From positions 1-34,499 of IMG/VR virus record IMGVR_UViG_3300044631_003039: a stretch of 34,499 nucleotides of DNA, one strand, 5' to 3'. The DNA comes from a virus. Positions 10,489 to 25,238 of this stretch are shown here, piece by piece (the first letter of the stretch is position 1; each line of letters opens with the position of its first letter). The notes under the pieces are model-generated. The model was not told the DNA's origin, did no database searches, and saw only the letters and a list, made by a program, of their open reading frames with translations. The translations under genes were made by a program, and so were the position numbers.

Positions 10489-11448
10489 GTGAGCATCGAG
10501 GACTTCTTCGCGTATGCCCGAGCCCGGCACGAGGTCCACATCCGCAGGGAGGTGCTCGGGGAGCCTCGTCCGTGGACGACGGACCCGGTGCTCCAGACGA
10601 ACCGCTTCACGAACGTCTATCGAGAGCTGGACCGGACGACTGTCTGGCTCCGGCGCAGGGTCCGCACGCCGCTCCTGGAGGGAGGTGGGCACAGAGGCTC
10701 GGAGCTCGCTCGTCGCCTTCTGCTCGCGACGGTCGTGTTTCGTGCGTTCACGCGTGTCGAGACCGGCGAGTCGATGTTCACCCAGGGGCTGCTCTCGTTC
10801 TGCGAGGCGCAGACTCCGTTCGATCACTTCTTCGACACGGGGGACGTGTCCGAGCTCCGTCACGCGATCCTACTCGCTTCCCCGAAGGGACCGTGGGTGA
10901 CCGGTGCCTACATGATCCGCTCCCCGACCGGAATGACGAAGCTGGACGGAGTCCTGGACAACCTCCGGCGCTTCTATTACGAGACGAACTGGCGAGTCTG
11001 GTCTGCATCCATGATCGAGTGTGGCGGAACCGGCAGCATGAGGGCTGTGACGGAATGGCTGGCGACCGCCCCCGGCCACGGACCGTTCCTTGCCTACGAG
11101 GTCGTCTGCGATCTTCGATACACTCCGCTCCTGGAGAACGCCAAGGACCGGATGACCTGGGCGAACGTGGGGCCGGGGGCGCTGCGGGGCTTGGCCAGGG
11201 TATTCGGGCGTCGAAACGACAAGCCGAGGAAGCCTCGTCACGCGCTCCGAGTCGTGGTCCCGGACGATCAGGCCCAGCGCGAGATGAGAAGTCTCCTGGA
11301 GCTGAGTCGGGACCCCGCATACTGGCCGTATCAGTCCGACTATCCCGAGTGGGAGATGCGTGAGGTCGAGCACACTCTCTGCGAGTTCGACAAATACATG
11401 AGGGCCAAGACCGAGGGTCAGGGTCGCATGAAGAGGAAGTTCCAGTGA
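10489..11448 (+). CDS. aGPT-Pplase-like thymidine-modification enzyme, 319 aa
   Basis: The N-terminal signature 'FAYARARHEVHIRR' then 'PWTTDPVLQTNRFTNVYREL' and 'DRTTVWLRR' (about residues 7-57) is that of the alpha-glutamyl/putrescinyl-thymine pyrophosphorylase (aGPT-Pplase) family, clade 2/3. In phages with hypermodified thymidine these proteins act on phosphorylated 5-hydroxymethyluracil in DNA, and are now thought to join an amino acid or amine to the base. The rest of the length (~320 aa) also fits. GTG 10489 has GCGAGGAGA upstream. The stop overlaps the UDG-like gene. The matching kinase is encoded at 24645 and the TS-like enzyme at 12191. Confidence 0.8.
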   Translation: MSIEDFFAYARARHEVHIRREVLGEPRPWTTDPVLQTNRFTNVYRELDRTTVWLRRRVRTPLLEGGGHRGSELARRLLLATVVFRAFTRVETGESMFTQGLLSFCEAQTPFDHFFDTGDVSELRHAILLASPKGPWVTGAYMIRSPTGMTKLDGVLDNLRRFYYETNWRVWSASMIECGGTGSMRAVTEWLATAPGHGPFLAYEVVCDLRYTPLLENAKDRMTWANVGPGALRGLARVFGRRNDKPRKPRHALRVVVPDDQAQREMRSLLELSRDPAYWPYQSDYPEWEMREVEHTLCEFDKYMRAKTEGQGRMKRKFQ

Positions 11449-11894
11449 GGCCCTACATCCTCGGACTCAACAACCCGAAGGGACTCCCCGCCCTGGACCC
11501 GACCGTCCCGGGCTCGGCGGGAGACAGGCTGTTCCGGATCGTCACGACTCTCCGGCCGATGTCGACGGAGGCGTGGCTCCGTCGGACTCAGCGATACAAT
11601 CTTCTTCCCTATCCGGAGCTCCCTCGCGACTACCGCGCTCAGGCTCGGGTGGCGGCCGACTGGCTCGGACCGAAGATATCTGGCCGGACCGTGATCCTTC
11701 TGGGGTCGGACGTCGCGACCGCTCTCGGGCACACGGCGCCGCCATTCGTGTGGGCAGATGATCGGGACTGGATCCAGATTCCACACCCGTCGGGAAAAAA
11801 TCTGTTCTACAACGATCCCGTGAACAGACTCGCGACGTCCGTTCTTTTTCACCAGCTGATGGATCTACTATCGCCGGACTCTGCGTCGGCGTAG
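11445..11894 (+). CDS. Uracil-DNA-glycosylase-fold protein, 149 aa
   Basis: Two elements recall the UDG superfamily: 'YILGLNNP' at residues 4-11 (position of the catalytic 'G-x-x-P' loop) and 'WIQIPHPSGKN' at 109-119 (the HPS..N leucine-loop motif that binds DNA). It is shorter than classical UDG and lacks a clear catalytic Asp in motif A, so it may bind or cut a modified base rather than uracil. GTG 11445 overlaps the aGPT-Pplase stop, so the two are co-translated. This linkage suggests a role in installing or policing modified thymidine. The TAG stop is the start of a promoter -10. Confidence 0.68.
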   Translation: MRPYILGLNNPKGLPALDPTVPGSAGDRLFRIVTTLRPMSTEAWLRRTQRYNLLPYPELPRDYRAQARVAADWLGPKISGRTVILLGSDVATALGHTAPPFVWADDRDWIQIPHPSGKNLFYNDPVNRLATSVLFHQLMDLLSPDSASA

Positions 11895-11897
11895 AGT
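11869..11897 (+). promoter_or_regulatory. Phage promoter (family site 4)
   Basis: TATCGC (11869-11874), 17 bases, TAGAGT (11892-11897). The TAG of the UDG-like gene forms the first half of the -10. It would drive 11922 and the TS-like gene that follows. Confidence 0.6.
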
Positions 11898-11921
11898 AGC
11901 GCATAACTTCTGGAGGTCGTC

Positions 11922-12194
11922 ATGGCCGAGGGTTCCGCCTGCCCCTGCGTCGAGTCCGAGTCCGGATCAGCGATGCTGGAGGAGTCCGCGAGATACGTCG
12001 CGAGCGCTGCGGCGGACATCGGCAACGAGCGCGGGCTCTGTCCGGAGGGGATGAAGCACCTCCTGGCGAGCGTCGCGGCTCGTCTTCTGGAAGGGCCCGA
12101 CGTCGAGAGCCTCGGTCGACTCCTCGTCGAGAGGGGCGCGGCTCTGGCGGAGATGCATCGCCACACACCCGTCGACAGGAGCAACCTGAATTGA
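11922..12194 (+). CDS. Hypothetical protein, 90 aa
   Basis: ATG 11922 is preceded by CTGGAGG. The product is mostly helical (two long Ala/Leu/Glu-rich helices at about 17-35 and 45-75) with a 'CPC' near the N-terminus. No family recognised. It lies directly before the TS-like gene and overlaps its TTG start, so it is co-expressed with the modification genes. Confidence 0.66.
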   Translation: MAEGSACPCVESESGSAMLEESARYVASAAADIGNERGLCPEGMKHLLASVAARLLEGPDVESLGRLLVERGAALAEMHRHTPVDRSNLN

Positions 12195-13201
12195 GAGTTC
12201 TAGCGCACAACAACGTAAACGGCGCATATGGTCACGCCGGACAGATCCTCCGTCTGGCCGGTCTTCCGGAGGAGACTCGGAACGGACCGGCGCTCGTGTT
12301 CCCGACCCCGGTCACGACGGTCTACAAGCGTCCGTGCGAGCGCGTCCTTCTCTGGCGGCCGAGGATGGCCAACCCGTTCTTTCACCTGTTCGAGTCCATG
12401 TGGATGCTAGCTGGTCGGGACGACGCGGCGTGGCTGGACCAGTACGTGTCCGACTTCGGTGCCCGCTACGCCGAGCCCGACGGAACTCTCCACGGAGCCT
12501 ACGGTCACAGGTGGCGCCATCACTTCGGTCGGGACCAGATCCGAGACGCCATCACGCTCCTCCGCCGGGACCCGACGACGCGCCGATGCGTCATCACCAT
12601 GTGGAACCCGCGCGAGGATCTCGGCGCGTCCAAGTCCGACATCCCGTGCAACACCCACATATATCTCAGCATACGACACGGTCGGCTCGACATGCTGGTG
12701 TCGTGCCGGTCAAACGACGCGGTCTGGGGTGCCTACGGGGCGAACTCGGTCCACATGTCCGTCCTGCAGGAGTTCGTCGCGTGGGCGGTTGGCGTGGACG
12801 TGGGTGAGCTCCGCCAGGTCAGCTACAATCTTCACGTCTACCAGTCGACGCTCCACCTCCTCCCGGAGCGACCGATCCCGGACCCCTACATCTACCACGC
12901 CGAGTCGGGCGTCGCGATCCTGACTCGCAGCCCTCTGTTCTCGGGGGACCCGGATCACATGCTAGGTGCGATCGAGGAGTGGACGTGGGGTCCGTCGGAT
13001 CCTCCGTGGCGCGCCCCTTTGTTTCGTGAGCTCCTGGTGCCCATGCACGACGCGTGGGTCGCGTATCGAGCAGACAAGGAGGTTCCGATCGAGAGGCGCC
13101 GGGCCGAGGCATCCTCCATCGTCGCGTCCAGGGTGTCCCATGTCGACTGGAGGGAGGCGTGCCTGATGTGGTTGAACAGGAACGAGGGGATGTCGTCGTG
13201 A
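12191..13201 (+). CDS. Thymidylate-synthase-fold enzyme, probable dUMP hydroxymethylase, 336 aa
   Basis: This is a thymidylate synthase superfamily member. Phosphate-binding 'TRRCVITMWNP' (130-140), the catalytic Cys153 in 'SDIPCNTHIYLSIRHGRL', the 'SCRSNDAVWGAYGANSVHMS' segment (171-190) with Asn185 and 'SYNLHVYQST' (211-220) are all present. The Asn in that segment favours a dUMP substrate over dCMP. Phages with hydroxymethyl-dU use TS homologues that add hydroxymethyl instead of methyl, and the presence of a hydroxymethyl-dU kinase-like gene supports that reading. Classical thymidylate synthase cannot be excluded by sequence alone. The TTG start at 12191 has AGGAG nine bases upstream and overlaps the previous stop. 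Confidence 0.82.
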   Translation: MRVLAHNNVNGAYGHAGQILRLAGLPEETRNGPALVFPTPVTTVYKRPCERVLLWRPRMANPFFHLFESMWMLAGRDDAAWLDQYVSDFGARYAEPDGTLHGAYGHRWRHHFGRDQIRDAITLLRRDPTTRRCVITMWNPREDLGASKSDIPCNTHIYLSIRHGRLDMLVSCRSNDAVWGAYGANSVHMSVLQEFVAWAVGVDVGELRQVSYNLHVYQSTLHLLPERPIPDPYIYHAESGVAILTRSPLFSGDPDHMLGAIEEWTWGPSDPPWRAPLFRELLVPMHDAWVAYRADKEVPIERRRAEASSIVASRVSHVDWREACLMWLNRNEGMSS

Positions 13202-13857
13202 ACGACATGTCGCCACACCAGTCGAGCACCGTTGTGCCCGAGATGCAGCTCCGTCGGGACCCGAGGATGGCGGGTCAGGTCCTTCGGTATCACACATGGC
13301 CGTCCCACACGAGGCAGAACATCGCGGATCACACGTGGCAGTTGATGAGGATCGTCCTCGCCATCTGGCCGGATGCTCCGAGGGACGTCCTCGTGGAGCT
13401 CATGTTCCACGACGTTGGCGAAGTCGGGACTGGGGACATTCCCTACCCGATCAAGAAGGACAACCCGTCCGTTGGCAGGGAGATGAACCGTCTCGAGGAG
13501 GAGACTCGCCTCTCCATGTGCATTCCGTGGGGCGTCCCTGGTCCCGCGAAGCTTCCTCCCGGAGTCAAGTTCGTCTGCAAGATCGCGGAGTTCATCGAGA
13601 TGTGGGAGTGGGGTGCTCAGGAGCGCCTCATGGGGTCCGTGTTCGGCAAGAATGTCGAGGATCGTTGCAGGGACGCCTGGCGCCGGATGTTCCACGACTC
13701 CGACCCGTGGTCTAGTCGCGACGAGAGCATCGCCGAGTGGGAGGTCCGGTTCGACGGAGTCTCCACAGCCCACATGGCCCTCATCCGGGACAGGATCCGC
13801 ATCTATCTTCGCCGACGATACACCGAGTGGCACTTCGAGGAGGCATGCCCGCTGTGA
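13198..13857 (+). CDS. HD-domain nucleotide phosphohydrolase, 219 aa
   Basis: A metal-dependent phosphohydrolase of the YfbR/HDDC2 type. The HD signature is visible: H45 in 'NIADHTW', H71-D72 in 'MFHDVGE', and D80 in 'TGDIPYPIKK'. The final metal-binding Asp, normally in 'KxADxxE', is replaced by Glu131 in 'CKIAEFIEMWEW', which may alter metal or activity. Such enzymes remove phosphate from dNMPs or dNTPs. In phages with altered bases they deplete the canonical nucleotide. GTG 13198 overlaps the TS-like stop, placing it firmly in the nucleotide pathway. Confidence 0.82.
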   Translation: MNDMSPHQSSTVVPEMQLRRDPRMAGQVLRYHTWPSHTRQNIADHTWQLMRIVLAIWPDAPRDVLVELMFHDVGEVGTGDIPYPIKKDNPSVGREMNRLEEETRLSMCIPWGVPGPAKLPPGVKFVCKIAEFIEMWEWGAQERLMGSVFGKNVEDRCRDAWRRMFHDSDPWSSRDESIAEWEVRFDGVSTAHMALIRDRIRIYLRRRYTEWHFEEACPL

Positions 13858-14765
13858 GTGCGATCAGGAACCCGGCCCACTACGGTGGGGACGTGTGGTG
13901 GGAGCACGTCAAGATAGCGGAGCAGATGGGATGGGGCTACCTCGTCGGCAACGCCACGAAATACCTCTGGCGCATCGACAAGAAGACCGCCGACACGTCG
14001 ACGCAGGACATCGAGAAGGCGATCTGGTATCTGGAGCGTCGGGTCAAAAATCTTCGGCGGATCGAGTCGGCGACCGGCGCGAGGATCTCCGAGTGGGGCG
14101 CGCGGTGGTGGAGGCTCCGCACGTGCGGACCGCCCCCCAGCGGCTGGACGCTTGGGGACCTCCTGGACGAGCTCCGTCGAGACGGAGTCCCAGCCTTCGC
14201 CCGGGACGCGATCCAGTGGATGTTCTTCTCCGGACTCGTTCCGGTCGAAGTGGAGATCAGTGCTCTCTCGAGGTCGATCGGGGATCTCCGTCACGAGGTC
14301 CAGATCCGGACGGCGCTGGGCGGAGGATCACTCGTCATCCGCAGAGGGACCGGGGGAGGGACCGGCGGAGGACTCCCGACGGCGGTTGCGGCGACAGGAG
14401 TTCTGACAGGGGGCCGCAGCGCGGGGGGAACAACCGCGACCATGACCAAAATACCGGTCGTGGTGGTCGGGGATCCGGAGCCGAGCGCTCCTCCCCACCC
14501 GTCAGACTCGTTCGACAACACGGCGCTGGCCAAGCTTCTGGAGATCGACGACGCGACGGCGCTCGCGCTCATTCGGTGCACAACAACGATCAAGGGGAAG
14601 ACGATCGAGGAGATGGCTCGGCACGTCGGCTCCAACGTGCAACACAGAACCCACGACGAGCTCCGCGAGCTGGTCAGGACCTACTGCGACTGCGTCCGGT
14701 GGGCGGACACGAAGACTCCATACCGAACGGACGTGGATCCAGAGGACCCGACGAGGATCGGCTGA
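13854..14765 (+). CDS. DUF3310 protein with long C-terminal extension, 303 aa
   Basis: Residues 4-50 ('NPAHYGGDVWWEHVKIAEQM' then 'GNATKYLWRIDKK' and 'DIEKAIWYLERR') are the DUF3310 domain, a small phage domain often found beside nucleotide-metabolism genes. Beyond it comes a helical region, a Gly/Thr-rich linker (about 160-195) and a ~100-residue C-terminal part ending near 'LVRTYCDCVRWADTKTPY', none of which I recognise. Stand-alone DUF3310 proteins are usually ~70-150 aa, so this is a fusion. GTG 13854 is preferred to ATG 13845 because of spacing from GAGGAGG. Confidence 0.75.
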   Translation: MSAIRNPAHYGGDVWWEHVKIAEQMGWGYLVGNATKYLWRIDKKTADTSTQDIEKAIWYLERRVKNLRRIESATGARISEWGARWWRLRTCGPPPSGWTLGDLLDELRRDGVPAFARDAIQWMFFSGLVPVEVEISALSRSIGDLRHEVQIRTALGGGSLVIRRGTGGGTGGGLPTAVAATGVLTGGRSAGGTTATMTKIPVVVVGDPEPSAPPHPSDSFDNTALAKLLEIDDATALALIRCTTTIKGKTIEEMARHVGSNVQHRTHDELRELVRTYCDCVRWADTKTPYRTDVDPEDPTRIG

Positions 14766-14766
14766 G

Positions 14767-16752
14767 GTGTCCGCCCGCCCCGTTCCTCTCGGGCAGCTCA
14801 GCCTGATGGACCTCCCGACGCTGGCCGCCAAGCCTCCTCCGGCGTCGTGGACCCCACCCACAACCCTCCCCCGGCCACGCGGGGAACTGATCTCCATCGA
14901 CACTGAGACGAACGACCAGGGTCTCGCCGAAGAGATGGGGGCTGGGTGGGCCGTCGGAGCCGGGTGGCTCTGTGGAGTCTCGATGAGCTGGGCCGGGGGG
15001 TCGGTCTACGTGCCAGTGCGGCATCCGGACACGGAGTGTCGGCCGGTGGACGAGGTCGCTCGGTGGGTGGAGTTCTTGTTCGAGAACAACACCGTCGTCT
15101 TCTTCAATTCCATCTACGACCTCGGATGGCTTCGCGCCAGCGGCGTCCGGACGTTCCCCCGGCGGATGGAGGACGCGCAGGCGATCTGCTCCATGATCGA
15201 CGAGAACTGGGACTCCTACAGCCTGGACTCGTGCTGTCAGCGAGCGGGGATCTCTGGAAAGGACGAGCACCTCCTGAACGAGGCAGCCCGCGCTCACGGC
15301 ATCCCGAAGAAGAGGGGGTCCTACAAGCATGGGTTGTGGAAGCTCCCTGCGCGCTACGTCGGACCCTACGCCGAGCAGGACACGTCGTCCACGCTGGATC
15401 TCTTCCGGGCGGTCTGGCCGGAGCTCGAGAAGGAGAAGCAGGAGGACGCCTATCGGACCGAGATGCGACTGGTGCCGTGCTTGGTGCAGATGAAGGAGAG
15501 GGGAATCCGCATCGACCTCGACAATGCCGATCGGTCCAGGACTAGGATCCGGGCCACGCGCGACGAGACCCTCCGCCAGATCGAGATTCCCGGACTCCGA
15601 CGCGCGACGACGATCGAGGACGTGAGGTCCACGAAGACGCTGGCGAGCCTGTTCGATCATCACGGGATATCCTACCCGATGACTCCGGGCGGTCGGGACC
15701 CGGTCCGAAATCCTCCGCAGCCATCCTTCGTGAAGGAGTTCCTGGAGACTGTGGAGCACCCGATCGGCGGACTCATCCGGAAGTCTCGAAAGCTCGACGA
15801 GATGGCCGAGAAGTTCATCGGCAACTACATCATGGGATTCGCGACCCGAGGCCGGATTCACGCCGAGGCGCATCCGCTGAGGAACGACGACGGTGGTGCC
15901 CGAACCAGTCGGTTCAGCTACTCGGGCCCACCGCTCCAGCAGATGCCCGCTCGGGACGAGGAGTGGGCGCCGCTCATCCGGAACTGTTTCTTGTCGGAGG
16001 AGAGTGCACGATGGAACTCCAGCGACTACAGCCAGCAGGAGCCTCGACTCGCCGTTCACTTTGCCTATCTGTGCAAGATCCACGGCGCGGAGGCAGCGGT
16101 CCGATACTACGCCGAGCTCGGCCCCAAGGCCGACTTTCACACGATGGTCGCGCAGATGGCGGGGATTGCCCGGTCGAGCGCGAAGATCATCAACCTCGGG
16201 CTGATGTATGGGATGGGTCTGAGGAAGCTGGCCTCGTCCCTGGGCCTGGATATGGAGGCGGCGGAGGCACTGATGAAACAGTATCACGCCAAGGTTCCGT
16301 GGGTGGAGGGTCTGACAAACTTCTGCAAGAACCGGGCGATGGCTCGCGGATACATCAATCTCCTGGACGGAGCTCGTCGTCATTTCCCGTTCTGGCAGCC
16401 GAGGGGAACTCGCGGGGAGGGGTCTTTCGCGCGGAGAATCGCGGCCGAGGCACGCTGGCCCAACAAGGCTCTGGAGCGCGCTTTCTGCCAGAAGGCCATG
16501 AACAGCGCGGTTCAGGGATCTGCCGCCCGCCAGACGAAGAGAGCGATGGTCGTCGCATACGAGGCAGGTCACCTGCCGATGGTGCAGATGCACGACGAGC
16601 TCTGCTTCTCCGTCGACGACCCTCGGGTCGGCGACGAGATATCCCGGATCATGATCGAGACGAGCCCGCTCGTCGTCCCGATCCGGGTGGATGTCGAGTA
16701 TGGTCCGACATGGGGTCGGGCCAAGTATAACTGGGAGGATTGTCCGACATGA
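14767..16752 (+). CDS. polA: Family A DNA polymerase (PolA-like), 661 aa
   Basis: The replicative polymerase of the phage. The 3'-5' proofreading domain has Exo I D45/E47 ('SIDTETND'), Exo II N114/D118 ('FFNSIYDLGWL') and Exo III Y201/D205 ('YAEQDTSSTLDLF'). Polymerase motif A is 'NSSDYSQQEPRLAV' (D420), motif B 'RSSAKIINLGLMYGMG' (R469, K473, Y481) and motif C 'MVQMHDELCFS' (HDE 609-611). No 5'-3' exonuclease domain is present, as usual in phages. Leu477 occupies the position of E. coli Phe762, a substitution reported in many environmental phages. GTG 14767 lies 1 base after the previous stop. Confidence 0.95.
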   Translation: MSARPVPLGQLSLMDLPTLAAKPPPASWTPPTTLPRPRGELISIDTETNDQGLAEEMGAGWAVGAGWLCGVSMSWAGGSVYVPVRHPDTECRPVDEVARWVEFLFENNTVVFFNSIYDLGWLRASGVRTFPRRMEDAQAICSMIDENWDSYSLDSCCQRAGISGKDEHLLNEAARAHGIPKKRGSYKHGLWKLPARYVGPYAEQDTSSTLDLFRAVWPELEKEKQEDAYRTEMRLVPCLVQMKERGIRIDLDNADRSRTRIRATRDETLRQIEIPGLRRATTIEDVRSTKTLASLFDHHGISYPMTPGGRDPVRNPPQPSFVKEFLETVEHPIGGLIRKSRKLDEMAEKFIGNYIMGFATRGRIHAEAHPLRNDDGGARTSRFSYSGPPLQQMPARDEEWAPLIRNCFLSEESARWNSSDYSQQEPRLAVHFAYLCKIHGAEAAVRYYAELGPKADFHTMVAQMAGIARSSAKIINLGLMYGMGLRKLASSLGLDMEAAEALMKQYHAKVPWVEGLTNFCKNRAMARGYINLLDGARRHFPFWQPRGTRGEGSFARRIAAEARWPNKALERAFCQKAMNSAVQGSAARQTKRAMVVAYEAGHLPMVQMHDELCFSVDDPRVGDEISRIMIETSPLVVPIRVDVEYGPTWGRAKYNWEDCPT

Positions 16753-17192
16753 TCTACCAACCCAAAGTGACTGACTTGGTCGCGATGAAATCCATGATGG
16801 GAGGGGTGAAGAGGTTCCACGATGCGTGCGGGATCGTAACGCCGTCCTCGGCGAGCATTCCGACTCCGGATCGGGTCGAGTTGCGGCAGAAGTTGATCCG
16901 GGAGGAGGTGTGCGACGAGCTCCTCCCCGCACTGGAGCGCGGTGATCTCCCGAAGATCGCCGACGGCATCGCCGACGCCATCGTCGTCCTTCTCGGGACC
17001 GCCCTGGAGTATGGGATCCCGGAGCACATCGTCTGGGGGATCGTCCTGGCCGCGAACGACGCGAAGATCGATCCCGAGTCCGGTTTCGTCCGGAAGCGGG
17101 CGGACGGGAAGATCCTGAAGCCCGAGGGATGGGTGGCGCCCGACGGCCAGATCTCTGGGGTTCTGGCGAGCCAGCTGCTGGAAGTGTCGTGA
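16749..17192 (+). CDS. MazG-like nucleotide pyrophosphohydrolase, 147 aa
   Basis: An all-alpha NTP pyrophosphohydrolase that hydrolyses (d)NTPs to monophosphates. The metal-binding pattern E52-E53...E57 ('IREEVCDELLPAL') and D72...D76 ('ADGIADAIVVLLGTALEYGI') is intact, followed by 'AANDAKI' and 'KRADGKILKPEGW', which are typical of MazG-like and phage members. It could clear a canonical dNTP from the pool or lower ppGpp. ATG 16749 overlaps the polymerase stop and has GGAGG ten bases upstream. Confidence 0.85.
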   Translation: MIYQPKVTDLVAMKSMMGGVKRFHDACGIVTPSSASIPTPDRVELRQKLIREEVCDELLPALERGDLPKIADGIADAIVVLLGTALEYGIPEHIVWGIVLAANDAKIDPESGFVRKRADGKILKPEGWVAPDGQISGVLASQLLEVS

Positions 17193-17632
17193 GCACCCGC
17201 CGCCGGTCTGACGACGGCCTCCGCCGGATCGTCCAGGACAAGATCCCTCGGGCGCACTGGCAGCCGATCGAGACCGGCGGCATCGCCCCCGGCGTGCCCG
17301 ATCTGAACGGAGTCCTGGCGGGAACCGAGTCGTGGGTGGAGTGCAAGGCCACGGACACGATGCGGATCAAATTCGAGCCGGGTCAAATTCCGTGGATCGA
17401 TCGCAGAACGCGAGCCGGGGGGCGGGTGTGGATCGCCATCCGGCGTCGCCACGAGGGTGGTCTGAGGAGGGGTCCCGCAGTGGATCAGCTCTGGCTGTAT
17501 CCTGGCTACGTCGTGAAGGAGCTGGCGTCCCTCACTCTGGACGACCCCCTGATCTCGATGTCCGGATCCATGTGGGAGGGAGGTCCGTCCGGATGGAACT
17601 GGACTCGGGTGGAGGCCAGGATCTTCGGGTGA
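17189..17632 (+). CDS. PD-(D/E)XK nuclease (VRR-NUC-like), 147 aa
   Basis: 'GIAPGVPDLNGV' (31-42, D38) and 'SWVECKATD' (48-56, E51 and K53) form the PD...ExK core, and Gln66 in 'FEPGQIPWI' matches the helix that follows in VRR-NUC and Holliday-junction-resolvase-like nucleases. The likely role is cutting branched or structured DNA during replication and packaging. GTG 17189 overlaps the MazG stop and is the last gene of the run that began with the TS-like gene. A promoter region follows. Confidence 0.8.
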   Translation: MSTRRRSDDGLRRIVQDKIPRAHWQPIETGGIAPGVPDLNGVLAGTESWVECKATDTMRIKFEPGQIPWIDRRTRAGGRVWIAIRRRHEGGLRRGPAVDQLWLYPGYVVKELASLTLDDPLISMSGSMWEGGPSGWNWTRVEARIFG

Positions 17633-17640
17633 TCTCCAGG

Positions 17641-17664: not shown

Positions 17665-17668
17665 GGTC

Positions 17669-17697: not shown

Positions 17698-17709
17698 TGG
17701 TGTATCAAG

Positions 17710-18278: not shown

Positions 18279-18297
18279 GCCTCGGTTCGGGTTGGCC

Positions 18298-18323
18298 GGA
18301 GCCCCAGCGACGCCTGGGGCTCC
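18298..18323 (+). terminator. Probable intrinsic terminator
   Basis: Perfect 10-bp stem ggagccccag / ctggggctcc with a 6-base loop, 19 bases after the stop, followed by GCACGTTTC. It separates the previous gene from the one at 18347. Confidence 0.7.
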
Positions 18324-18346
18324 GCACGTTTCAAGGGAGAACCGTC

Positions 18347-18646
18347 GTGTCCATCACATTCTCGACCACCACTCTGGGCACTTCGCCGGACGGTCCGGTG
18401 TTCGTGGATCACCCGAGCTCGAGATCGACAAATTTTGCAACCGCGAGTGCCCTTCGCGTCCTGTCGATTATGGGCGTAGACGCCAGCTACTGCGGATCTC
18501 TGACTCTCGAGGAGGCGACTCGGGCGATCAGTGTCGCCCGATCGAGTTCTGAGCTCTATGGGGACGACCGCCTCCGAGTGGACGCCATCTACAGAGTCGT
18601 CCAGCAAGGTCGCCTCATCGGCGCCACTCATCTTTCCTGGGCGTAG
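18347..18646 (+). CDS. Hypothetical protein, 99 aa
   Basis: GTG 18347 has AAGGGAGAA upstream. No family recognised. The C-terminal half has helical segments ('LTLEEATRAISVARSSSELY', 'RVDAIYRVVQQGRLIGATHL'). As it lies after a hairpin and has no family promoter of its own, it may be expressed by read-through from 17748. Confidence 0.65.
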   Translation: MSITFSTTTLGTSPDGPVFVDHPSSRSTNFATASALRVLSIMGVDASYCGSLTLEEATRAISVARSSSELYGDDRLRVDAIYRVVQQGRLIGATHLSWA

Positions 18647-18659
18647 CCAGGAATTCGTC

Positions 18660-18688
18660 TTTCGCCCTGATCAGTGCGGACCTAGACT
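18660..18688 (+). promoter_or_regulatory. Phage promoter (family site 6)
   Basis: TTTCGC (18660-18665), 17 bases, TAGACT (18683-18688) followed by GAG, with AGGAATT 11 bases before the -35. One of the best matches to the family. Confidence 0.75.
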
Positions 18689-18717
18689 GAGCTGGTGTTC
18701 AACGAGGAGTCGCGTCC

Positions 18718-19353
18718 ATGTCCAGTCGCTATAAGTCCGAGACCTTCAACACCGAGCCGGCCTCGGCGCTCGAGACCCTGATCTCCGACGCCGAGGGGAT
18801 CCGCGAGGAGCTCACCGAGTGGAAGGACAACCTTCCGGAGAGCCTCCAGAGCGGAGAGAAGGCGTCCGCTCTGGAGGACGCCGCGTATACGATCGAAGAC
18901 GCCGTCTCCAACCTCCAGGGGATCGACGAGAGCGATCTGACCGGGATCCTCCGGACGAAGATCCCGGCGCAGGAGGAGATCCCCTCCGATCCGGATCAGG
19001 TCCAGCTCCCCACCGAGGAGGACTGCCTGATCGTCGTCGGCGTCCAGCTGCGCCCCGGGAAGAAGCGGGGCCGCGAGAGTCGGGTGGTGCGCCTCGCCAA
19101 CGCAGCGGCCCACGGGTCGGCGATCCGGGAAGAGCTCGACACGTGGCTCCACAACGCTCGGGAGTGGGTCGAGAAGGTCCGTGCGGTCTATCCGGAGGAG
19201 AACGTCGAGGAGATGACCAATCACCTGGAGGCTGTGGAGATCGCCGTCAAGGCAGTCCAGTCGAAGATCGACGAGGCCGATGAGATCTACTCCACGATCG
19301 AGGAGGCTGTCGGCTCCCTGGAGGGCGTCGAGATTCCCGGGATGTATGGCTGA
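18718..19353 (+). CDS. Acidic helical/coiled-coil protein, 211 aa
   Basis: ATG 18718 has ACGAGGAG upstream and a family promoter. The protein is strongly acidic, with two long helical halves (about 15-75 and 135-205, for example 'AIREELDTWLHNAREWVEKV') flanking a short beta segment 'DCLIVVGVQLRPGKKRG'. Such acidic coiled-coil proteins are often anti-host or scaffold proteins. No family recognised. It appears to be a single-gene unit between two promoters. Confidence 0.75.
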   Translation: MSSRYKSETFNTEPASALETLISDAEGIREELTEWKDNLPESLQSGEKASALEDAAYTIEDAVSNLQGIDESDLTGILRTKIPAQEEIPSDPDQVQLPTEEDCLIVVGVQLRPGKKRGRESRVVRLANAAAHGSAIREELDTWLHNAREWVEKVRAVYPEENVEEMTNHLEAVEIAVKAVQSKIDEADEIYSTIEEAVGSLEGVEIPGMYG

Positions 19354-19376
19354 TCCGCGTCGCTCAAGAATTCCTC

Positions 19377-19405
19377 TTTCGCTTCTCGTGAGGGTCGGCT
19401 AGAAG
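19377..19405 (+). promoter_or_regulatory. Phage promoter (family site 7)
   Basis: TTTCGC (19377-19382), 17 bases, TAGAAG (19400-19405), with AAGAATT 11 bases before the -35. An imperfect inverted repeat (19366-19376 and 19402-19412, 9 of 11 matching) flanks the core promoter. Confidence 0.7.
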
Positions 19406-19412
19406 AGTTCTT

Positions 19413-19427
19413 GGGCGGTCGTCGCTC
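19413..19427 (+). promoter_or_regulatory. 5'-leader stem-loop (leader 2)
   Basis: gggcg-GTCGT-cgctc, 5 bp including one G-U pair, starting at the expected transcription start, then AGAGGAGG and GTG 19444. Same layout as leader 1. Confidence 0.55.
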
Positions 19428-19443
19428 GACAGAGGAGGTTCCA

Positions 19444-20430
19444 GTGTCCGATCAAGAATTCACCGAAGAGCAGCTCACCGCGATCCGCCGGGTCGAGAAA
19501 CTCCTCACGCTCTCGAAGCGGGGTGGGACCGAGGAGGAGGCCACCGCCGCTGCGGCCAAGGCGCAGGAGCTTCTGGAGCTCTACAACCTCGACATGGCCA
19601 AGATCTCTGCAGCCGGGGGCGGCGGGGTCGACTCCGGGAAGCGCGAGCAGGCGAAGGTTCGTGGCGGAGCACGTTCCTGGGAGAGGGATCTCTGGGGTGC
19701 AGTCGCCCGCCTGAACTTCTGCCTCTACTTCCCGGGCTGCGCCTACATCACGATCAAGAGGAAGGGGCAGACGAGGACGCGGGTCACGTCCAATCACGTG
19801 GTCATCGGCCGGACGGTCAACGTCCGACTGACCCAGTCCATCGCGACCTATCTCCGGGACGCTATCGAGAGGATCCTCCGGGAGCGCAACGGCAACGATC
19901 CAAGCCAGCTCCACTCCAACTGGTCCAACAGCTTCCGTCGTGGCGCGTTCGATCGCCTGTGCGAGCGGCTCGAAAACCGGCGCAACGAGAAACTCGCCGA
20001 GGAGCGCGAGCGCCAGGCCAAGGCGACCCGGGACGCGGCCGGATACTCGTCCGGAACGGCGCTCGTTCTGTCCAGCTACATCGATCGGGAGAACGACGCC
20101 AACTACGACTTCCTCTACGGCGAGGGGTGGTCGGCGAAACAGGCGGCGGATCGAGCGGACCGAGCCGAGCGGGCCAGGGTCCAGCGAGAGGAGCACACGA
20201 AGTGGGCCGCCGAGCACCCCCAGGAGGCCCGCGAGCTCGAGAAGAAGCGTCGGGAGGAGGGCGAGGCTCTCCGCAAGAAGTGGGCGAACCGTGGCAAGGG
20301 GTCGCGGGGCGGGAAGGTTGGTCCCGACATCGACAACGGCGCATACTGGTCGGGCTACGATCGAGCCAACGAGGTTGGCCTCGACGAGCAGGTCCAGTCC
20401 GCTCCCGGCCAGCGGAGGATTGCGTCGTGA
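19444..20430 (+). CDS. DUF2786 family protein, 328 aa
   Basis: 'VEKLLTLSKRGGTEEEATAA' followed by 'AAKAQELLELYNLDMAKI' (about 14-52) is the DUF2786 signature. The middle region ('WERDLWGAVARLNFCLYF', 'VVIGRTVNVRLTQSIATYLR') fits the domain that usually follows it. The C-terminal ~100 residues are a charged, Arg/Glu/Ala-rich helix ('AADRADRAERARVQREEHTK') ending in a Gly/Lys-rich tail. These proteins occur in many phages and plasmids, with unknown function. GTG 19444 has AGAGGAGG. The stop overlaps the Toprim gene by 4 bases, so the two are likely functional partners. Confidence 0.82.
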   Translation: MSDQEFTEEQLTAIRRVEKLLTLSKRGGTEEEATAAAAKAQELLELYNLDMAKISAAGGGGVDSGKREQAKVRGGARSWERDLWGAVARLNFCLYFPGCAYITIKRKGQTRTRVTSNHVVIGRTVNVRLTQSIATYLRDAIERILRERNGNDPSQLHSNWSNSFRRGAFDRLCERLENRRNEKLAEERERQAKATRDAAGYSSGTALVLSSYIDRENDANYDFLYGEGWSAKQAADRADRAERARVQREEHTKWAAEHPQEARELEKKRREEGEALRKKWANRGKGSRGGKVGPDIDNGAYWSGYDRANEVGLDEQVQSAPGQRRIAS

Positions 20431-21320
20431 CCCTACTCGCCTACGAGCGGAAGAAGCTCTCGGACGACCGACTCCGGACCATCGGTATCGCCAACGAGAT
20501 CATCGAGGAGTACGAGAAGGCGGGACTGTCGCTGACGCTCCGTCAGCTCTACTATCAGTTCGTCGCCCGCGGTCTGATCGAAAACTCGGACCGCAGCTAC
20601 GATCGCCTCGGGTCCGCCATCAACGACGGACGGATGGGCGGCCTGATCTCATGGACCGCGATCGAGGACCGGACCCGGAACCTCATGGGGATCAACACCT
20701 TCCGGAGCCCTGCGGAGCTCCTGCGGTCGGCCCGGAGCCGATACGCGAAGGACCTCTGGAGGGACCAGGAGTGGCGACCGGAGGTGTGGGTCGAGAAGGA
20801 CGCACTCGTCGGCGTCATCGGAGGTATCTGCCAGGAGCTCCGTGTGGACTACTTCGCCTGCCGAGGCTACAACAGCCAGTCGGAGCAGTGGAGGGCTGGC
20901 CAGCGGCTCGCCCGATACGTCCAGAAGGGGCAGCGGCCGATCATCTTCCATCTGGGGGACCACGATCCGTCGGGTATCGACATGACTCGGGACAACACCG
21001 AGCGGCTCGGCCTCTTCGCCGGGACTCCAGTCATGGTCGTTCGGTTGGCGCTGAACATGGACCAGGTCCGCCACTACAATCCTCCGCCGAACCCGGCAAA
21101 GCTCAGCGACAGTCGGGCGCGGGACTACGTCTCGAAGTTCGGCGACGAGAGCTGGGAGCTCGATGCTCTGGACCCCAGGGTCATCCAGCGACTGATCCGT
21201 GAGAACGTCGAGCGGATCCGGAACGAGTCCATCTGGCAGGAGGCACTGGCCGACGAGGCAGCCGACCTCGACGAGATCGACATCATGATCGAACGAATGA
21301 CGGGAGGAGACGAGCAGTGA
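20427..21320 (+). CDS. Toprim-domain protein, Topo VI A/Spo11-like, 297 aa
   Basis: The N-terminal ~100 residues look like a winged-helix part ('LSLTLRQLYYQFVARGLI', with a second 'RSYDRLGSAINDGR'). The Toprim metal-binding motifs follow: 'EVWVEKDAL' (Glu123) and 'HLGDHDPSGIDMTRD' (Asp178, Asp180). WH plus Toprim is the layout of topoisomerase VI A/Spo11 and related phage proteins. Such proteins nick or bind DNA with Mg2+; no catalytic Tyr can be assigned with confidence. GTG 20427 overlaps the DUF2786 stop. Confidence 0.75.
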   Translation: MTLLAYERKKLSDDRLRTIGIANEIIEEYEKAGLSLTLRQLYYQFVARGLIENSDRSYDRLGSAINDGRMGGLISWTAIEDRTRNLMGINTFRSPAELLRSARSRYAKDLWRDQEWRPEVWVEKDALVGVIGGICQELRVDYFACRGYNSQSEQWRAGQRLARYVQKGQRPIIFHLGDHDPSGIDMTRDNTERLGLFAGTPVMVVRLALNMDQVRHYNPPPNPAKLSDSRARDYVSKFGDESWELDALDPRVIQRLIRENVERIRNESIWQEALADEAADLDEIDIMIERMTGGDEQ

Positions 21321-21472
21321 GCAAGGTTCAGGAACACGAGATCGACTGGTATGTCTGCACGGCGGATGAGTCGGACGTCGAGGCTTACCCTGGACTCGGC
21401 GCAGCCCAACCCGAACTGGAAGTGACCACCCCCGGCAAGAAATCTCTTTGGCCGGGGGGCGGTCCGCGCTAG
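21317..21472 (+). CDS. Small hypothetical protein, 51 aa
   Basis: GTG 21317 overlaps the Toprim stop and has GGGAGGAGACGAG upstream. The product is acidic at the start and Gly/Pro rich at the end, with no recognisable family. Its last third lies over the promoter for the next gene, and its TAG stop is the first half of that -10 box. Confidence 0.5.
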   Translation: MSKVQEHEIDWYVCTADESDVEAYPGLGAAQPELEVTTPGKKSLWPGGGPR

Positions 21473-21475
21473 AGT
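21447..21475 (+). promoter_or_regulatory. Phage promoter (family site 8) within a hairpin
   Basis: TTTGGC (21447-21452), 17 bases, TAGAGT (21470-21475), followed by GAC. An 8-bp inverted repeat (cccccggc at 21429-21436, gccggggg at 21451-21458) brackets the -35 region, leaving it partly in the 14-base loop. This could be an operator or an upstream terminator. Confidence 0.6.
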
Positions 21476-21502
21476 GACTGGGTCCAGTAGGAGGAGGCTC
21501 GG

Positions 21503-21817
21503 GTGGATCTTCAGGAGTTCAAGAGGCTTGTGGGGGAGGGTCGCCGTCGCGTCCAACTCCCCGTCGCGGAGGACGGGGGTCCGGCCGAGAGGGGATTCCT
21601 CGCGGATCCGGAGTCGTGCCTTCGGGACCAGTCGACGGGGGCCAACAAGGACGATCCGATGATGATGGTCGTCGTCAACAGAGAATTCGTCGCCCCGAGG
21701 TTCGACGACGGGTATCGCGAGCTCAGCGTGTCCCAGATCGTGGAGTTCCTTCCGGACGTCGACGTCGGGGGGCTGCCGGAGGTCGGCTGGGACCCGTTCG
21801 CGGAGGAGGAGTCGTGA
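21503..21817 (+). CDS. Hypothetical protein, 104 aa
   Basis: GTG 21503 is preceded by AGGAGGAGG and a family promoter. The product is acidic with a beta-rich core ('PMMMVVVNREFVAPRFDDGY') and ends in 'EEES'. No family recognised. It overlaps the next gene by GTGA. Confidence 0.65.
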   Translation: MDLQEFKRLVGEGRRRVQLPVAEDGGPAERGFLADPESCLRDQSTGANKDDPMMMVVVNREFVAPRFDDGYRELSVSQIVEFLPDVDVGGLPEVGWDPFAEEES

Positions 21818-22002
21818 GGGACGACCCGAGCGAGCGGAGCTGGAGAGGGTACTCGTCCGCGCTCGCGGATACGCCTCGGAAGAGCCTCCCGACCCGACGC
21901 TGGACGAAAAGCGATATCGACGAGCACGCTCGGTTCATGGATCGGTGGCGGGCGGATCACGAGTCGACGGGGCAGGTCCGTCGCAGACCCGGAGCGGAGT
22001 GA
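21814..22002 (+). CDS. Small basic hypothetical protein, 62 aa
   Basis: GTG 21814 overlaps the preceding stop, with GGAGGAGGA upstream. The product is highly charged and Arg-rich, with a single likely helix ('SDIDEHARFMDRWRADHE'). It could be a nucleic-acid-binding peptide. No family recognised. Confidence 0.58.
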   Translation: MRDDPSERSWRGYSSALADTPRKSLPTRRWTKSDIDEHARFMDRWRADHESTGQVRRRPGAE

Positions 22003-22430
22003 TGACCACAGACAGCAAGTGCGGAACGTGCCAGATGTGCTGCAGGATTCTGGAGGTCCGGACGCTCGAGAAGCCGGTGGACATTCGGTGCCGTCATCAG
22101 TGCCTGGCGGGATGCGGGATATACCAGGAGAAACCCTCCGAGTGCTCGACCTACGAGTGCCTGTGGCTTCAGTCCCAGGGCGACAACGTTCTGGACCCGT
22201 TTCCGGAGACGTGGAGGCCGGATCGCCTGGGCATCGTCATCGACGGCGGCGGTCTGGACCCGGAGCGTCGGGTCCTCGTCTTCCGGACGACGTCCACTGG
22301 CGAGTCTCGACTGAAGTCCGTCGACGCCAGGACTATCGCCCAGAGCCTGGTCCGGCAGGGGTTCACGATCGCGGTCAAGATCGGCTCTCGGGAGCCAATC
22401 ACGTGGCAGGATTTTCTTCGCAGATCGTGA
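22002..22430 (+). CDS. CxxCxxCC (YkgJ-like) metal-cluster protein, 142 aa
   Basis: The N-terminus 'CGTCQMCCRI' (Cys 7, 10, 13, 14), then Cys near 30, 34 and 38 ('CRHQCLAGCGIY'), and 'KPSECSTYECLW' match the CxxCxxCC zinc/iron-chelating family (YkgJ). Members bind a metal or Fe-S cluster and some act on tRNA or proteins; the phage role is unknown. The C-terminal ~80 residues are beta-rich and not assigned. ATG 22002 overlaps the preceding stop by one base. Confidence 0.78.
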   Translation: MTTDSKCGTCQMCCRILEVRTLEKPVDIRCRHQCLAGCGIYQEKPSECSTYECLWLQSQGDNVLDPFPETWRPDRLGIVIDGGGLDPERRVLVFRTTSTGESRLKSVDARTIAQSLVRQGFTIAVKIGSREPITWQDFLRRS

Positions 22431-22445
22431 AGATCGGTCTAGGAT
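22416..22445 (+). promoter_or_regulatory. Phage promoter (family site 9)
   Basis: CTTCGC (22416-22421), 18 bases, TAGGAT (22440-22445), with AGGATT upstream. Spacing is slightly off from the 17 bases at other sites. A second candidate -10 (TAGAAC, 22463-22468) would put the start right at the stem-loop but lacks a matching -35. Confidence 0.5.
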
Positions 22446-22476
22446 ATTCTGGAGAATGGGCGTAGAACTCACTCAT

Positions 22477-22491
22477 GGGCGGTCGTCGCCC
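22477..22491 (+). promoter_or_regulatory. 5'-leader stem-loop (leader 3)
   Basis: gggcg-GTCGT-cgccc, a perfect 5-bp stem with the same loop as leader 2, followed by CTTCAGGAGG and ATG 22511. Confidence 0.6.
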
Positions 22492-22510
22492 GGCTCTTCA
22501 GGAGGTTCTC

Positions 22511-22780
22511 ATGTCCGCTTCCGTCATCCGCCGCTCTTCCAAGCAGCTCGTCACTCTGTCGTGCGAGGGTCGTCGCATCCAGTTCCGCCTCAGCAACGTG
22601 GGTTCCTTCCTGTCTGCTCGGTGCGAGGACCCCACGGTCACGGTCCAGCAGGCCCAGGCTTGCCTCGAGACCATTCAGTCCGAGATCGTCGAGAAGGAGA
22701 CCTCCTTCAAGACCCCTGGCCGGTGCCCCTCCTTCGGCTGGCACATGGACGGTATCGTGGCCAACTGGAGCTATAACTGA
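22511..22780 (+). CDS. Small hypothetical protein, 89 aa
   Basis: ATG 22511 has a strong AGGAGG and a structured leader, suggesting high expression. The product has a beta-rich start ('SSKQLVTLSCEGRRIQFRLS') and a helix in the middle ('VQQAQACLETIQSEIVEKE'). No family recognised. The stop overlaps the next ATG by one base. Confidence 0.68.
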   Translation: MSASVIRRSSKQLVTLSCEGRRIQFRLSNVGSFLSARCEDPTVTVQQAQACLETIQSEIVEKETSFKTPGRCPSFGWHMDGIVANWSYN

Positions 22781-23220
22781 TGGGCTCCAGCCAGCTCCGC
22801 GAGGCGGCGGACGTCCGCCGCTTCGCCCTGGCGGGTCGGGCGCACCTGACCCTTCGGTCCAAGAAGACCGGCACCAGGTTCACCTATCGGTTGAGCCGGA
22901 TCACCGACTCCGACGCCGCGTTCGCTTCGGTCTTGACCGGCTCGAACAACGAGGGCGACTACTCGTATGCGGGCATCGTGGACACGAGTGGGTTCCGGAC
23001 GACCCGGCGCTCGGCGCTGACCTGCGACGCTCCGTCGGTCCGGGCTCTGGAGTGGTTCAGCCAGAAGGTTCTTCGGGACGGCATGTCCCCTGCGGACCTC
23101 GGGCTGGAGGTCTATCACGAGGGCCGGTGCGGCAAGTGCGCTCGGCTCCTCACGACTCCAGAGTCCGTCGAGCGGGGCATAGGTCCGGAGTGCTGGTCCA
23201 AGATGGAGGGGCGTCGATGA
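22780..23220 (+). CDS. DUF6011-like protein, 146 aa
   Basis: The C-terminal end 'EGRCGKCARLLTTPESVERG' then 'IGPECWSK' contains the C-x2-C...G-I-G-P-x-C pattern of DUF6011, a small zinc-finger found at the end of many phage proteins. The N-terminal ~100 residues look like a beta domain ('GTRFTYRLSRITDSDAAF'). Such proteins have no known role; binding to nucleic acid is a reasonable guess. Confidence 0.75.
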   Translation: MGSSQLREAADVRRFALAGRAHLTLRSKKTGTRFTYRLSRITDSDAAFASVLTGSNNEGDYSYAGIVDTSGFRTTRRSALTCDAPSVRALEWFSQKVLRDGMSPADLGLEVYHEGRCGKCARLLTTPESVERGIGPECWSKMEGRR

Positions 23221-23435
23221 GGACCTGGACTCCTCGGTTCCGCGACTACGTCGCGAGGCTCCACAATCTTCGAGACGAACTCCCGAAAGGACCTCGTCGG
23301 GATCGTGTGAAACTCATCCTCCTGGCGCTGAGCTACGGATCGCCGATCCCCACGATCCGCGTCAGAATAAAGCTGGCCGTCGAGGCGGAGCGACAGAATT
23401 CCTCTACCGCCCCCGGCAAGATCCCGCTACACTGA
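23217..23435 (+). CDS. Small basic hypothetical protein, 72 aa
   Basis: ATG 23217 overlaps the preceding stop. The product is Arg/Leu-rich and largely helical ('RFRDYVARLHNLRDELPKGP'), possibly RNA- or DNA-binding. No family recognised. Its 3' end holds a family promoter, and its TGA stop overlaps the -10. Confidence 0.58.
   Translation: MRTWTPRFRDYVARLHNLRDELPKGPRRDRVKLILLALSYGSPIPTIRVRIKLAVEAERQNSSTAPGKIPLH
23405..23433 (+). promoter_or_regulatory. Phage promoter (family site 10)
   Basis: TACCGC (23405-23410), 17 bases, TACACT (23428-23433), followed by GAT; AGAATT lies 11 bases before the -35. It drives the gene at 23458. Confidence 0.65.
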
Positions 23436-23457
23436 TCCAGTAGTCCAGGAGTCCATC

Positions 23458-23748
23458 ATGTCCGAGATCCTCAGCCTTCAGCCCGGTGCCCACATCGGGA
23501 TCATCGCCGGGACCACGTTCCAGTTCGGCAAGATCACGTCCGTGACCGCCAATCAAGTCTGCGTCGAACAGGCCGGGGGTGTGGTCCGGAAGTTCTCCCG
23601 CGTGTCCCTCTTCGAGATCGGTCACAAGGGAACCCGATACACGTGCCCGGCGCTCGTCTCCCACGGCGAGGCTGTCCGCCGTCAGCGGGAGTATGCGGAG
23701 GCGACTCGCCTCGCGGGCGAGCGTCTCCGGAAGGCAGGCGTGCTGTGA
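23458..23748 (+). CDS. Hypothetical protein, 96 aa
   Basis: ATG 23458 is preceded by CCAGGAG and a family promoter. The N-terminal 60 residues look like a small beta-barrel ('GAHIGIIAGTTFQFGKITSV'), the C-terminal end is a charged helix ('GEAVRRQREYAEATRLAGER'). No family recognised. It is coupled by GTGA to the next gene. Confidence 0.66.
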   Translation: MSEILSLQPGAHIGIIAGTTFQFGKITSVTANQVCVEQAGGVVRKFSRVSLFEIGHKGTRYTCPALVSHGEAVRRQREYAEATRLAGERLRKAGVL

Positions 23749-24047
23749 CAATTCGGTCCAGCGGAGACCCGATACCCAGCGACGGACTCCCAAGAGCCCT
23801 CGTTCTCTGCAGGATAAAGGGGAGCAGCCCGAGCTGGGTTGTCGTCGCGAGACCTGCCCACCGAGGGTTCTCGTTTTTAATCTGGGGCGACGGGGTTCAC
23901 ACGAAGTGCGCGATCGCTCGCCTCCGCGGAGACTCCGCACTGGACGTTCGCATCGAAGCAGTTGTCGAGCTGGTCGGACCGTCGTTCCCAGAGGTCGCGA
24001 TAGAACGAGCGCCCTGGATCCGCTTTCTGGAGGCGACGGCGTCGTGA
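23745..24047 (+). CDS. Hypothetical protein, 100 aa
   Basis: GTG 23745 overlaps the preceding stop. The protein is beta-rich ('PRALVLCRIKGSSPSWVVVA') with no membrane segment or known motif. It forms one translational chain with its neighbours at 23458 and 24044. Confidence 0.6.
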   Translation: MTIRSSGDPIPSDGLPRALVLCRIKGSSPSWVVVARPAHRGFSFLIWGDGVHTKCAIARLRGDSALDVRIEAVVELVGPSFPEVAIERAPWIRFLEATAS

Positions 24048-24328
24048 GCACTGCACGTCCCATCGTCGTCGCCAACGTCCTCGGAATATTCGTCGAGGCC
24101 ATGGTTCTGAAGAAGACCCTCCCGTTCTCGGTCGGACTCGTGGAGGGTCGGACCCTGATCGGGGACGGATGGCCTCTCCGGTTCAGACTAGATCAGGAGA
24201 AGAACGTCGAGGTCGTGAACCGAGGGACGTTCTCCGTCGCACTTAGGATCGGAGCTCAGGACCGAATCGTCGCCCCAGGGGAGTCCTGCATCCTCGTCCG
24301 TGGCGGGTTCTTCGAGAGCCCAGGGTGA
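24044..24328 (+). CDS. Hypothetical protein, 94 aa
   Basis: GTG 24044 overlaps the preceding stop, with TGGAGGCGA upstream. The product is a probable all-beta protein ('VEVVNRGTFSVALRIGAQDR', 'APGESCILVRGGFFE'). No family recognised. Coupled to the next gene by overlap. Confidence 0.6.
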   Translation: MSTARPIVVANVLGIFVEAMVLKKTLPFSVGLVEGRTLIGDGWPLRFRLDQEKNVEVVNRGTFSVALRIGAQDRIVAPGESCILVRGGFFESPG

Positions 24329-24642
24329 TGCCCGCCCACCGATCCTACCACCTTCCCGCGTATCGAGAGCGGATGTCCGCAGCCCTCAGAGGCAAGTCTC
24401 GGGGAGGGGAGGTGCTCCGGAGATTGAACGCCCAGAGGGAGGTCTTCTGGACGGAGGGCATGAGGAACGCGCTCGCGTCGGGATACTGGCGAGGATGGTC
24501 AACCGACACGATCGCCTTCGACATCGGGGTTGGGCGGGAAGTTCTCCAGAAGGAGATGAACCGACTTCAGCTCCCGAGGGGCCGCTGGGTGACGATCGCT
24601 CAGAGGCGAGCTGCGCTGGAACAATGCAACAACGGAGAATAA
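24325..24642 (+). CDS. Putative helix-turn-helix (GcrA-like) protein, 105 aa
   Basis: GTG 24325 (or ATG 24328) overlaps the previous stop. The region 'ALASGYWRGWSTDTIAFDIG' followed by 'VGREVLQKEMNRLQLPRGRW' looks like a helix-turn-helix with the W-x-x-G-x-S-x-x-x-I-A pattern found in GcrA-like and similar regulators. This is weaker than the 5402 gene. The N-terminus is basic. It immediately precedes the kinase and may regulate or be expressed with it. Confidence 0.62.
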   Translation: MMPAHRSYHLPAYRERMSAALRGKSRGGEVLRRLNAQREVFWTEGMRNALASGYWRGWSTDTIAFDIGVGREVLQKEMNRLQLPRGRWVTIAQRRAALEQCNNGE

Positions 24643-24644
24643 GC

Positions 24645-25238
24645 GTGATATTGAGCATCCGAGGAACGAGCGGCTCGGGGAAGACCCACCTGGCCAAGAC
24701 CCTCCTCCACAGCACCGGGATCTATGGGCCCCCGGTGAGCCACCACGCCAAGGGTCGGAAGCAGCCCTACTTCTACATCCGCCCCCATCTCTCCGGAGGT
24801 CGGGACCTGGTGATCCTCGGTCATTACGAGTCGGCCACGGGCGGGGTCGACACAATCTCCGGGAACGACATCCCATTCGAGCTGGCGAGGGAGCACTACT
24901 CACAGAATCGGGACGTCTTCATGGAGGGTCTCCTTCTGTCGGCGGAGCAGCACAGGACGGCCAGGCTCCACGAGGACGGGATCCCCGTCCGGCTCTTCTA
25001 CCTCAGCACGTCCCTCGAGGACTGCCTGGCGTCGGTGAGGGCACGGCGGGAGGCTCGCGGGAACACGGCTCCGCTGAACCCCGACACAACCGCGAGTCGG
25101 CATCGGGCGATCCGCACGCACCCCGACCGTTTTCGCGCGAAGGGTCTGCACGTCACTGTCGGGACGAGGCAGCAGGCAGTCTGGTGGCTCCAGGACTCCG
25201 GTCACCTCGCCCTGGACCCGGCGGACCGTCGGGACTAG
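24645..25238 (+). CDS. P-loop kinase resembling 5-hydroxymethyl-dU DNA kinase, 197 aa
   Basis: The first 15 residues hold the Walker A motif ('SIRGTSGSGKTHLAK'), and 'VILGHYESATGGVDTISGND' followed by 'VFMEGLLLS' matches the pattern of phage 5-hmdU DNA kinases (R-G-T-x-G-S-G-K, G-x-Y-x-x-x-x-G-G-x-D-T-I, E-G-L). These enzymes phosphorylate hydroxymethyluracil in DNA so that further groups can be added. Here the aGPT-Pplase-like product would use that activated base. GTG 24645 has GGAGA upstream, 2 bases after the previous stop. It is distant (13 kb) from the other pathway genes. A generic nucleoside kinase is a less likely alternative. Confidence 0.78.
   Translation: MILSIRGTSGSGKTHLAKTLLHSTGIYGPPVSHHAKGRKQPYFYIRPHLSGGRDLVILGHYESATGGVDTISGNDIPFELAREHYSQNRDVFMEGLLLSAEQHRTARLHEDGIPVRLFYLSTSLEDCLASVRARREARGNTAPLNPDTTASRHRAIRTHPDRFRAKGLHVTVGTRQQAVWWLQDSGHLALDPADRRD

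Follow-up and report, generated by a model that had tools for sequence, protein, structure and literature searches.

A candidate shortened thymidine-hypermodification pathway in a phage genome without a recognised amino-acid transferase

Can a virus that encodes the early enzymes of thymidine hypermodification, but no recognised transferase for the amino acid, still finish a modified base, and if so, which one? The question is raised by the virus record IMGVR_UViG_3300044631_003039, analysed over its full 34,499 bp (hereafter the window), which encodes a thymidylate synthase (TS) homologue (12191-13201), a P-loop kinase (24645-25238) and a protein of the PF18723 family (10489-11448), all on the + strand. 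A sequence-only reading had assigned these three proteins to a single route and stated that known hypermodifying phages carry the same trio. The three open reading frames (ORFs) do open at these positions and fall in hypermodification families, and homologues of all three were found in known hypermodifying phages, as in the SN1 cassette (PMC9476957). As a single route, the trio covers hydroxymethylation and phosphorylation but not amino-acid transfer. We consider that the virus probably uses a shortened pathway without AADT, the PF18724 transferase, with either a phosphate as end point or a finishing enzyme that was not recognised.

Synthase, kinase and the absent transferase

The synthase homologue matches PF00303 (5.2e-23) and phrog_5131 (4.3e-91) and is 40-45% identical to the enzymes of PaMx11, M6, MW2, Sonora and Pam3, which bears out its earlier placement as a TS-fold enzyme likely making hydroxymethyl-dUMP. 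In the alignment it keeps the catalytic Cys153 and a uracil-type Asn185. Since an Asp at the equivalent of position 185 marks cytosine enzymes (PMC5175136), the substrate is likely to be dUMP. Compared with the E. coli-type spacing, this Asn is placed one residue later, a shift shared by the M6 and PaMx11 enzymes, and its equivalence is by alignment. The protein is a predicted dUMP hydroxymethylase of the TS family.

The kinase matches the kinase part of phrog_800 (3.3e-17), reaches 3e-28 by tblastn to phage Epa43, is 36-39% identical to the PaMx11 and Ab18 kinases (39% to PaMx11 gp49) and retains every invariant P-loop and EG column. The motifs quoted in the sequence-only reading for this protein and for the 10489 product are present in the translations, and the assignment of the 24645 product as a 5-hydroxymethyl-deoxyuridine (5-hmdU) DNA kinase is correct as a function given by homology. 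In the tree, it groups with the kinases of loci L038, L044 and L045 (support 89/87). Profile searches placed neither the kinase nor the 10489 product in an unrelated family. Both PHROGs and GenBank label the 5-hmdU kinase family (phrog_800; PaMx11 gp49, Ab18 ORF12, phiW-14 gp37 and P26218 gp15) as 'terminase small subunit', apparently wrongly. Phage Bustleton was considered as a second kinase-only phage and discarded, its kinase belonging to a different family, PF18751.

The search for the transfer step was extended beyond the window. The whole window is contained at 99.97% identity in a contig of 48,392 bp (G001), both ends of which are overlapped by the ends of a 17,435 bp contig (G002; 3,644 and 2,046 bp, at 99.3% and 99.6%), so that the two contigs close to a composite of about 60.1 kb. 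G002 adds 11.7 kb, which carry portal, head and capsid genes, as judged by inspection of the ORFs. The Pfam profile PF18724 found no match in the window (G000), G001, G002 or G003, and only noise came from an unfiltered search of the ORFs of the window, G001 and G002 with an AADT profile built ad hoc. The same PF18724 profile recovers AADT in eight reference phages (PaMx11, Ab18, RaNi, M6, Sonora, MW2, RHph_I65 and phiW-14), which makes the negative result in the composite meaningful. Likewise, Pfam scans covering 29 of the non-structural proteins in the window, together with a single protein from G001, brought up no lyase, GNAT, pyridoxal phosphate (PLP), radical S-adenosylmethionine (SAM) or glycosyltransferase enzyme. 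Queries taken from glycosyltransferase-like genes of related loci had no match in the window, G001 or G002, and PF20691 (TET-associated glycosyltransferase, TAGT) was not found in the window or composite. The earlier remark that tailoring enzymes are missing was thus right for the window and can be extended to the composite, but the gap is not confined to late tailoring, as the AADT step is missing too.

The PF18723 protein and related loci

The 10489 product had been called aGPT-Pplase-like. This is the old family name of PF18723, but the role it implied was wrong. The amino-acid transferase is PF18724 (aGPT-Pplase2/AADT; PaMx11 gp46, PDB 8z2m), a separate family. In Ab18, ORF9 matches PF18724 and PDB 8z2m ('Glycinyltransferase') and ORF13 matches PF18723, while between them lie ORF10, with a match to 8z2o ('Flavin-dependent lyase'), ORF11, which encodes a GNAT protein, and ORF12, the kinase gene, and the synthase follows as ORF14; the PaMx11 operon, gp46 to gp51, has the same order. 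The SN1 listing of the M6-type cassette also gives aGPT-Pplase1 and aGPT-Pplase2 as separate genes (PMC9476957). The 10489 protein is therefore aGPT-Pplase1, and its candidacy as the transferase was rejected. It matches PF18723 (HMUDK_hel) at 2.7e-45 (155.4 bits against a curated cut-off of 25) and phrog_2396 at 7.5e-59; at E<=1, PF18723 was its sole Pfam match, with PF18724 not among them.

It could nevertheless be asked whether the virus completes an amino-acid adduct with a transferase that is not homologous to AADT or has diverged from it extremely, a part that the PF18723 protein itself may play. We regard this alternative as unlikely, although it is the strongest of the rivals. The model of the protein (pLDDT 91.5) has PaMx11 gp46 (8z2n) as its best structural match (Z 11.3, rmsd 4.3, 226 aligned), followed by DUF2419 and helix-hairpin-helix (HhH) DNA glycosylases, and hhalign gives a partial alignment of PF18723 with AADT (E 6e-4, probability 28). 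Three residue pairs (D208/D153, E294/E243 and C298/C247) are aligned and conserved in the two families, and no other protein with an HhH fold was recognised in the composite. A remote kinship of PF18723 with AADT is suggested by these models and alignments, a Z of 11.3 being inconclusive for helical folds. By sequence, the 10489 and 11445 products, used singly or as alignments, matched nothing relevant among solved structures. Against a transferase role, the profile alignment shows nothing that corresponds to the AADT-invariant R-x2-ERRH-x-R motif or to Lys150. Moreover, each of the eight classical phages examined has PF18723 in addition to AADT, and many phages have PF18723 but no kinase, which argues against aminoacyl transfer as its general function.

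The wider distribution of the family points the same way. Among 50 viral contigs (48 chosen for PF18723 and two of this population), a kinase match was found in 18, one of them marginal, and AADT in 11, all of which have the kinase; five contigs outside this population (G004, G010, G011, G047 and G050) have a firm kinase match without AADT, and the kinases of three of these are the ones that cluster with the window kinase in the tree. A homologue of the LuckyBarnes-type glycosyltransferase occurs without a kinase in 9 of 80 PF18723 loci; the one copy tested is of the TET-associated type PF20691, which was found in four contigs. A methyltransferase gene is present in 30/80 loci, directly upstream of PF18723 where coordinates were read. 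PF18723 is thus bound neither to the kinase nor to the transfer of amino acids. It has the look of a helper that serves 5-hmdU DNA in general, and makes a good candidate for a shared module that handles such DNA. A methyltransferase-like gene of this kind (L070 9144-9983) has homologues in 29 other IMG/VR loci, in which neither kinase nor AADT was detected; the pairing of methyltransferase and PF18723 could mark an undescribed decoration of 5-hmdU.

By tblastn, the 10489 and 24645 products are closest to those of Mesyanzhinovviridae and similar Pseudomonas phages, in which the genes for kinase, PF18723 and synthase adjoin. PaMx11 and Ab18 (Abidjanvirus) share with the window the kinase, PF18723 (49-50% identity), synthase (44%), HD nucleotidase, DUF3310 and PolA homologues; in contrast, PaMx11 encodes AADT (gp46), a flavin lyase (gp47) and an acetyltransferase (gp48), none of which occur in the window virus, whose kinase gene is displaced and which has an inserted gene resembling uracil-DNA glycosylase (UDG). 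The operons of M6 (Yuavirus) and Pam3 also hold synthase, kinase and PF18723, the M6-type phages have the UDG-like gene, and Pam3 has gp33, gp34 and topoisomerase homologues in common with the window, but these phages encode AADT, a PLP enzyme and a radical SAM enzyme, and the M6 base is 5-(2-aminoethyl)uridine. The IMG/VR contigs L038, L044 and L045, which have the nearest kinases in the tree, show the order UvrD-PF18723-kinase-UDG-like-synthase-HD and no AADT. They differ from the window in a glycosyltransferase-like gene beside the kinase (L038 12187-13314, L044 11309-12304, L045 11144-12139), a label given from sequence only, the L044 copy having no Pfam match; L038 and L045 also have a radical SAM gene. 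The pairing suggests a possible phosphate-and-sugar product in those viruses.

The nearest relative of the window PF18723 protein is the G005 copy (53%), whose locus reads PF18723-PLP-radical SAM-AADT-kinase-kinase-UDG-synthase-HD. On gene order, the window looks like the outcome of losing a G005-like middle block, with the kinase retained or regained elsewhere, which is the simplest account. Relative to G005, AADT, PLP and radical SAM genes appear deleted and the kinase lies outside the operon, so the classical pathway might stop at plain 5-hmdU, the kinase being a relic or repurposed. We hold this to be slightly less likely still than a diverged transferase, as the kinase is intact, with all its invariant residues, and is 99% identical in two further contigs of the same population. 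Sister loci combine PF18723 with TET-associated glycosyltransferases, and an unrecognised glycosyltransferase might likewise give the window virus a sugar-type product, which is improbable: in the PF18723 tree, the window protein falls outside the well-supported AADT-bearing clades and, with weak support, on the side of the glycosyltransferase loci, and the window is syntenic with the PF20691 carriers L041 and L047, but the searches described above found no such enzyme.

A proposed route and its end point

In the shortened pathway that we favour, whose chemical steps we infer, the synthase homologue would make hydroxymethyl-dUMP and the polymerase would incorporate 5-hmdU where thymine would stand. 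After replication, the P-loop kinase would phosphorylate some of these residues to 5-phosphomethyl-dU, and the HhH-fold PF18723 protein would act on or recognise 5-hmdU in duplex DNA alongside it. The exchange of phosphate for an amino acid, made by AADT in PaMx11 and M6, has no recognised enzyme here. That the phosphate is the end point is a serious but minority possibility, and completion of the base by an unrelated, unrecognised phage or host enzyme is about equally plausible; otherwise, the kinase would be idle or doing something else. It is, with similarly limited confidence, conceivable that the finished base is 5-phosphomethyl-deoxyuridine with a free phosphate at thymine positions, and that the kinase and PF18723 form a complete DNA-protection system.

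A phosphate-bearing base has chemical precedent. With its synthesis of putrescinylthymine blocked, the phiW-14 mutant am37 builds up pyrophosphorylated hydroxymethyluracil in DNA (PMC5977210), so that phosphorylated bases can accumulate, and SP-15 virion DNA contains a phosphate-linked thymine-derived base (PMC5977210). The SP-15 base differs in that its phosphodiester leads to glucuronolactone on dihydroxypentyluracil, with other genes involved. phiW-14 (alpha-putrescinylthymine) also resembles the window in having scattered genes, with kinase, PF18723 and AADT at 31, 64 and 86 kb, although in that phage AADT is present. As its DNA is hypermodified all the same (PMC5977210), scattered genes need not mean a lost function, and the split arrangement of the window was rejected as a sign of a broken pathway.

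Several points weigh against a shortened pathway. The composite genome consists of contigs joined at 99.3-99.6% identity, not one molecule, and many small window ORFs have no family assignment. The kinase falls under the Pfam HMUDK cut-off (7e-4 to PF18748, HMUDK_HMUD1), as do PaMx11-type kinases (Ab18 16.5 bits). Finally, given the glycosyltransferase-like neighbours in L038, L044 and L045, the kinase of these three AADT-less relatives may serve another product.

Surrounding genes and significance of the locus

The gene at 11445-11894 (+; phrog_12275) overlaps the PF18723 stop. Its model (pLDDT 89) has UDG, UdgX, TDG and MUG as top Foldseek matches (probability 0.99-1.0) and a Z of about 11 to TDG and MUG by VIA-align, and the motifs GLNNP and HPSG-N are conserved, so that modelled fold and two active-site motifs place the product in the UDG superfamily. 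The MW2 homologue (8502-8972) matches PF03167 at 0.0024, under the cut-off. Part of the family A polymerase of phage phiLo (9qhs) also matches the model. Homologues occur in M6, MW2, PC1 and the kinase and glycosyltransferase types of PF18723 loci, and a protein of this superfamily recurs in 5-hmdU loci (L014 8502-8972; L123 2908-3402; L038, L041, L044, L045, L047, L048, L059 and L076), where its neighbour is either a kinase or a glycosyltransferase. It may serve to remove bases or to read them.

The other neighbours are likewise on the + strand. Between the UDG-like gene and the synthase lies a small ORF (11922-12194) without a Pfam or PHROG match, which runs 4 bases into the synthase gene, and an HD-domain 5'-deoxynucleotidase-like gene (13207-13857; YfbR-like, 9e-9) follows the synthase, as in PaMx11, MW2 and Pam3. 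Further downstream, and kept in related loci, is a family A DNA polymerase (14767-16752; PF00476 6.8e-43), presumed to accept hmdUTP, followed by a MazG-like nucleotide pyrophosphohydrolase (16740-17192; PRA-PH 6.6e-6, phrog_671 6e-28). The kinase lies 13 kb away from the other pathway genes. The ORF directly upstream of PF18723 (9694-10407) has no Pfam or PHROG match; its homologues likewise lie upstream of PF18723 in five IMG/VR contigs (L041, L043, L047, L048 and L068), four of them with a detected glycosyltransferase. A pyrimidine dimer DNA glycosylase is encoded at 4989-5402 (PF03013 7.8e-25), and L041 and L047 have similar-looking genes close to their glycosyltransferase gene. Tail genes at 29128-34494 (- strand) and in G001 1-9700 resemble those of a contractile-tail phage. 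Relatives by terminase (48-53%) gave no PF18723, AADT or kinase match in the contigs searched, a set with no positive control and with several fragmentary records; the modification and replication block thus appears to sit on a structural chassis different from that of M6-type phages.

The analysis separates aGPT-Pplase1 from aGPT-Pplase2, two families blurred in annotations, and PF18723 alone cannot be used to predict aminoacylated thymine. The combination of 'phosphomethyl' and 'deoxyuridine' was not found for phages in the literature searched. If the pathway does stop at the phosphate, the virus would carry a DNA base unreported in that literature, produced by a minimal two-step hypermodification from a synthase and a DNA kinase.

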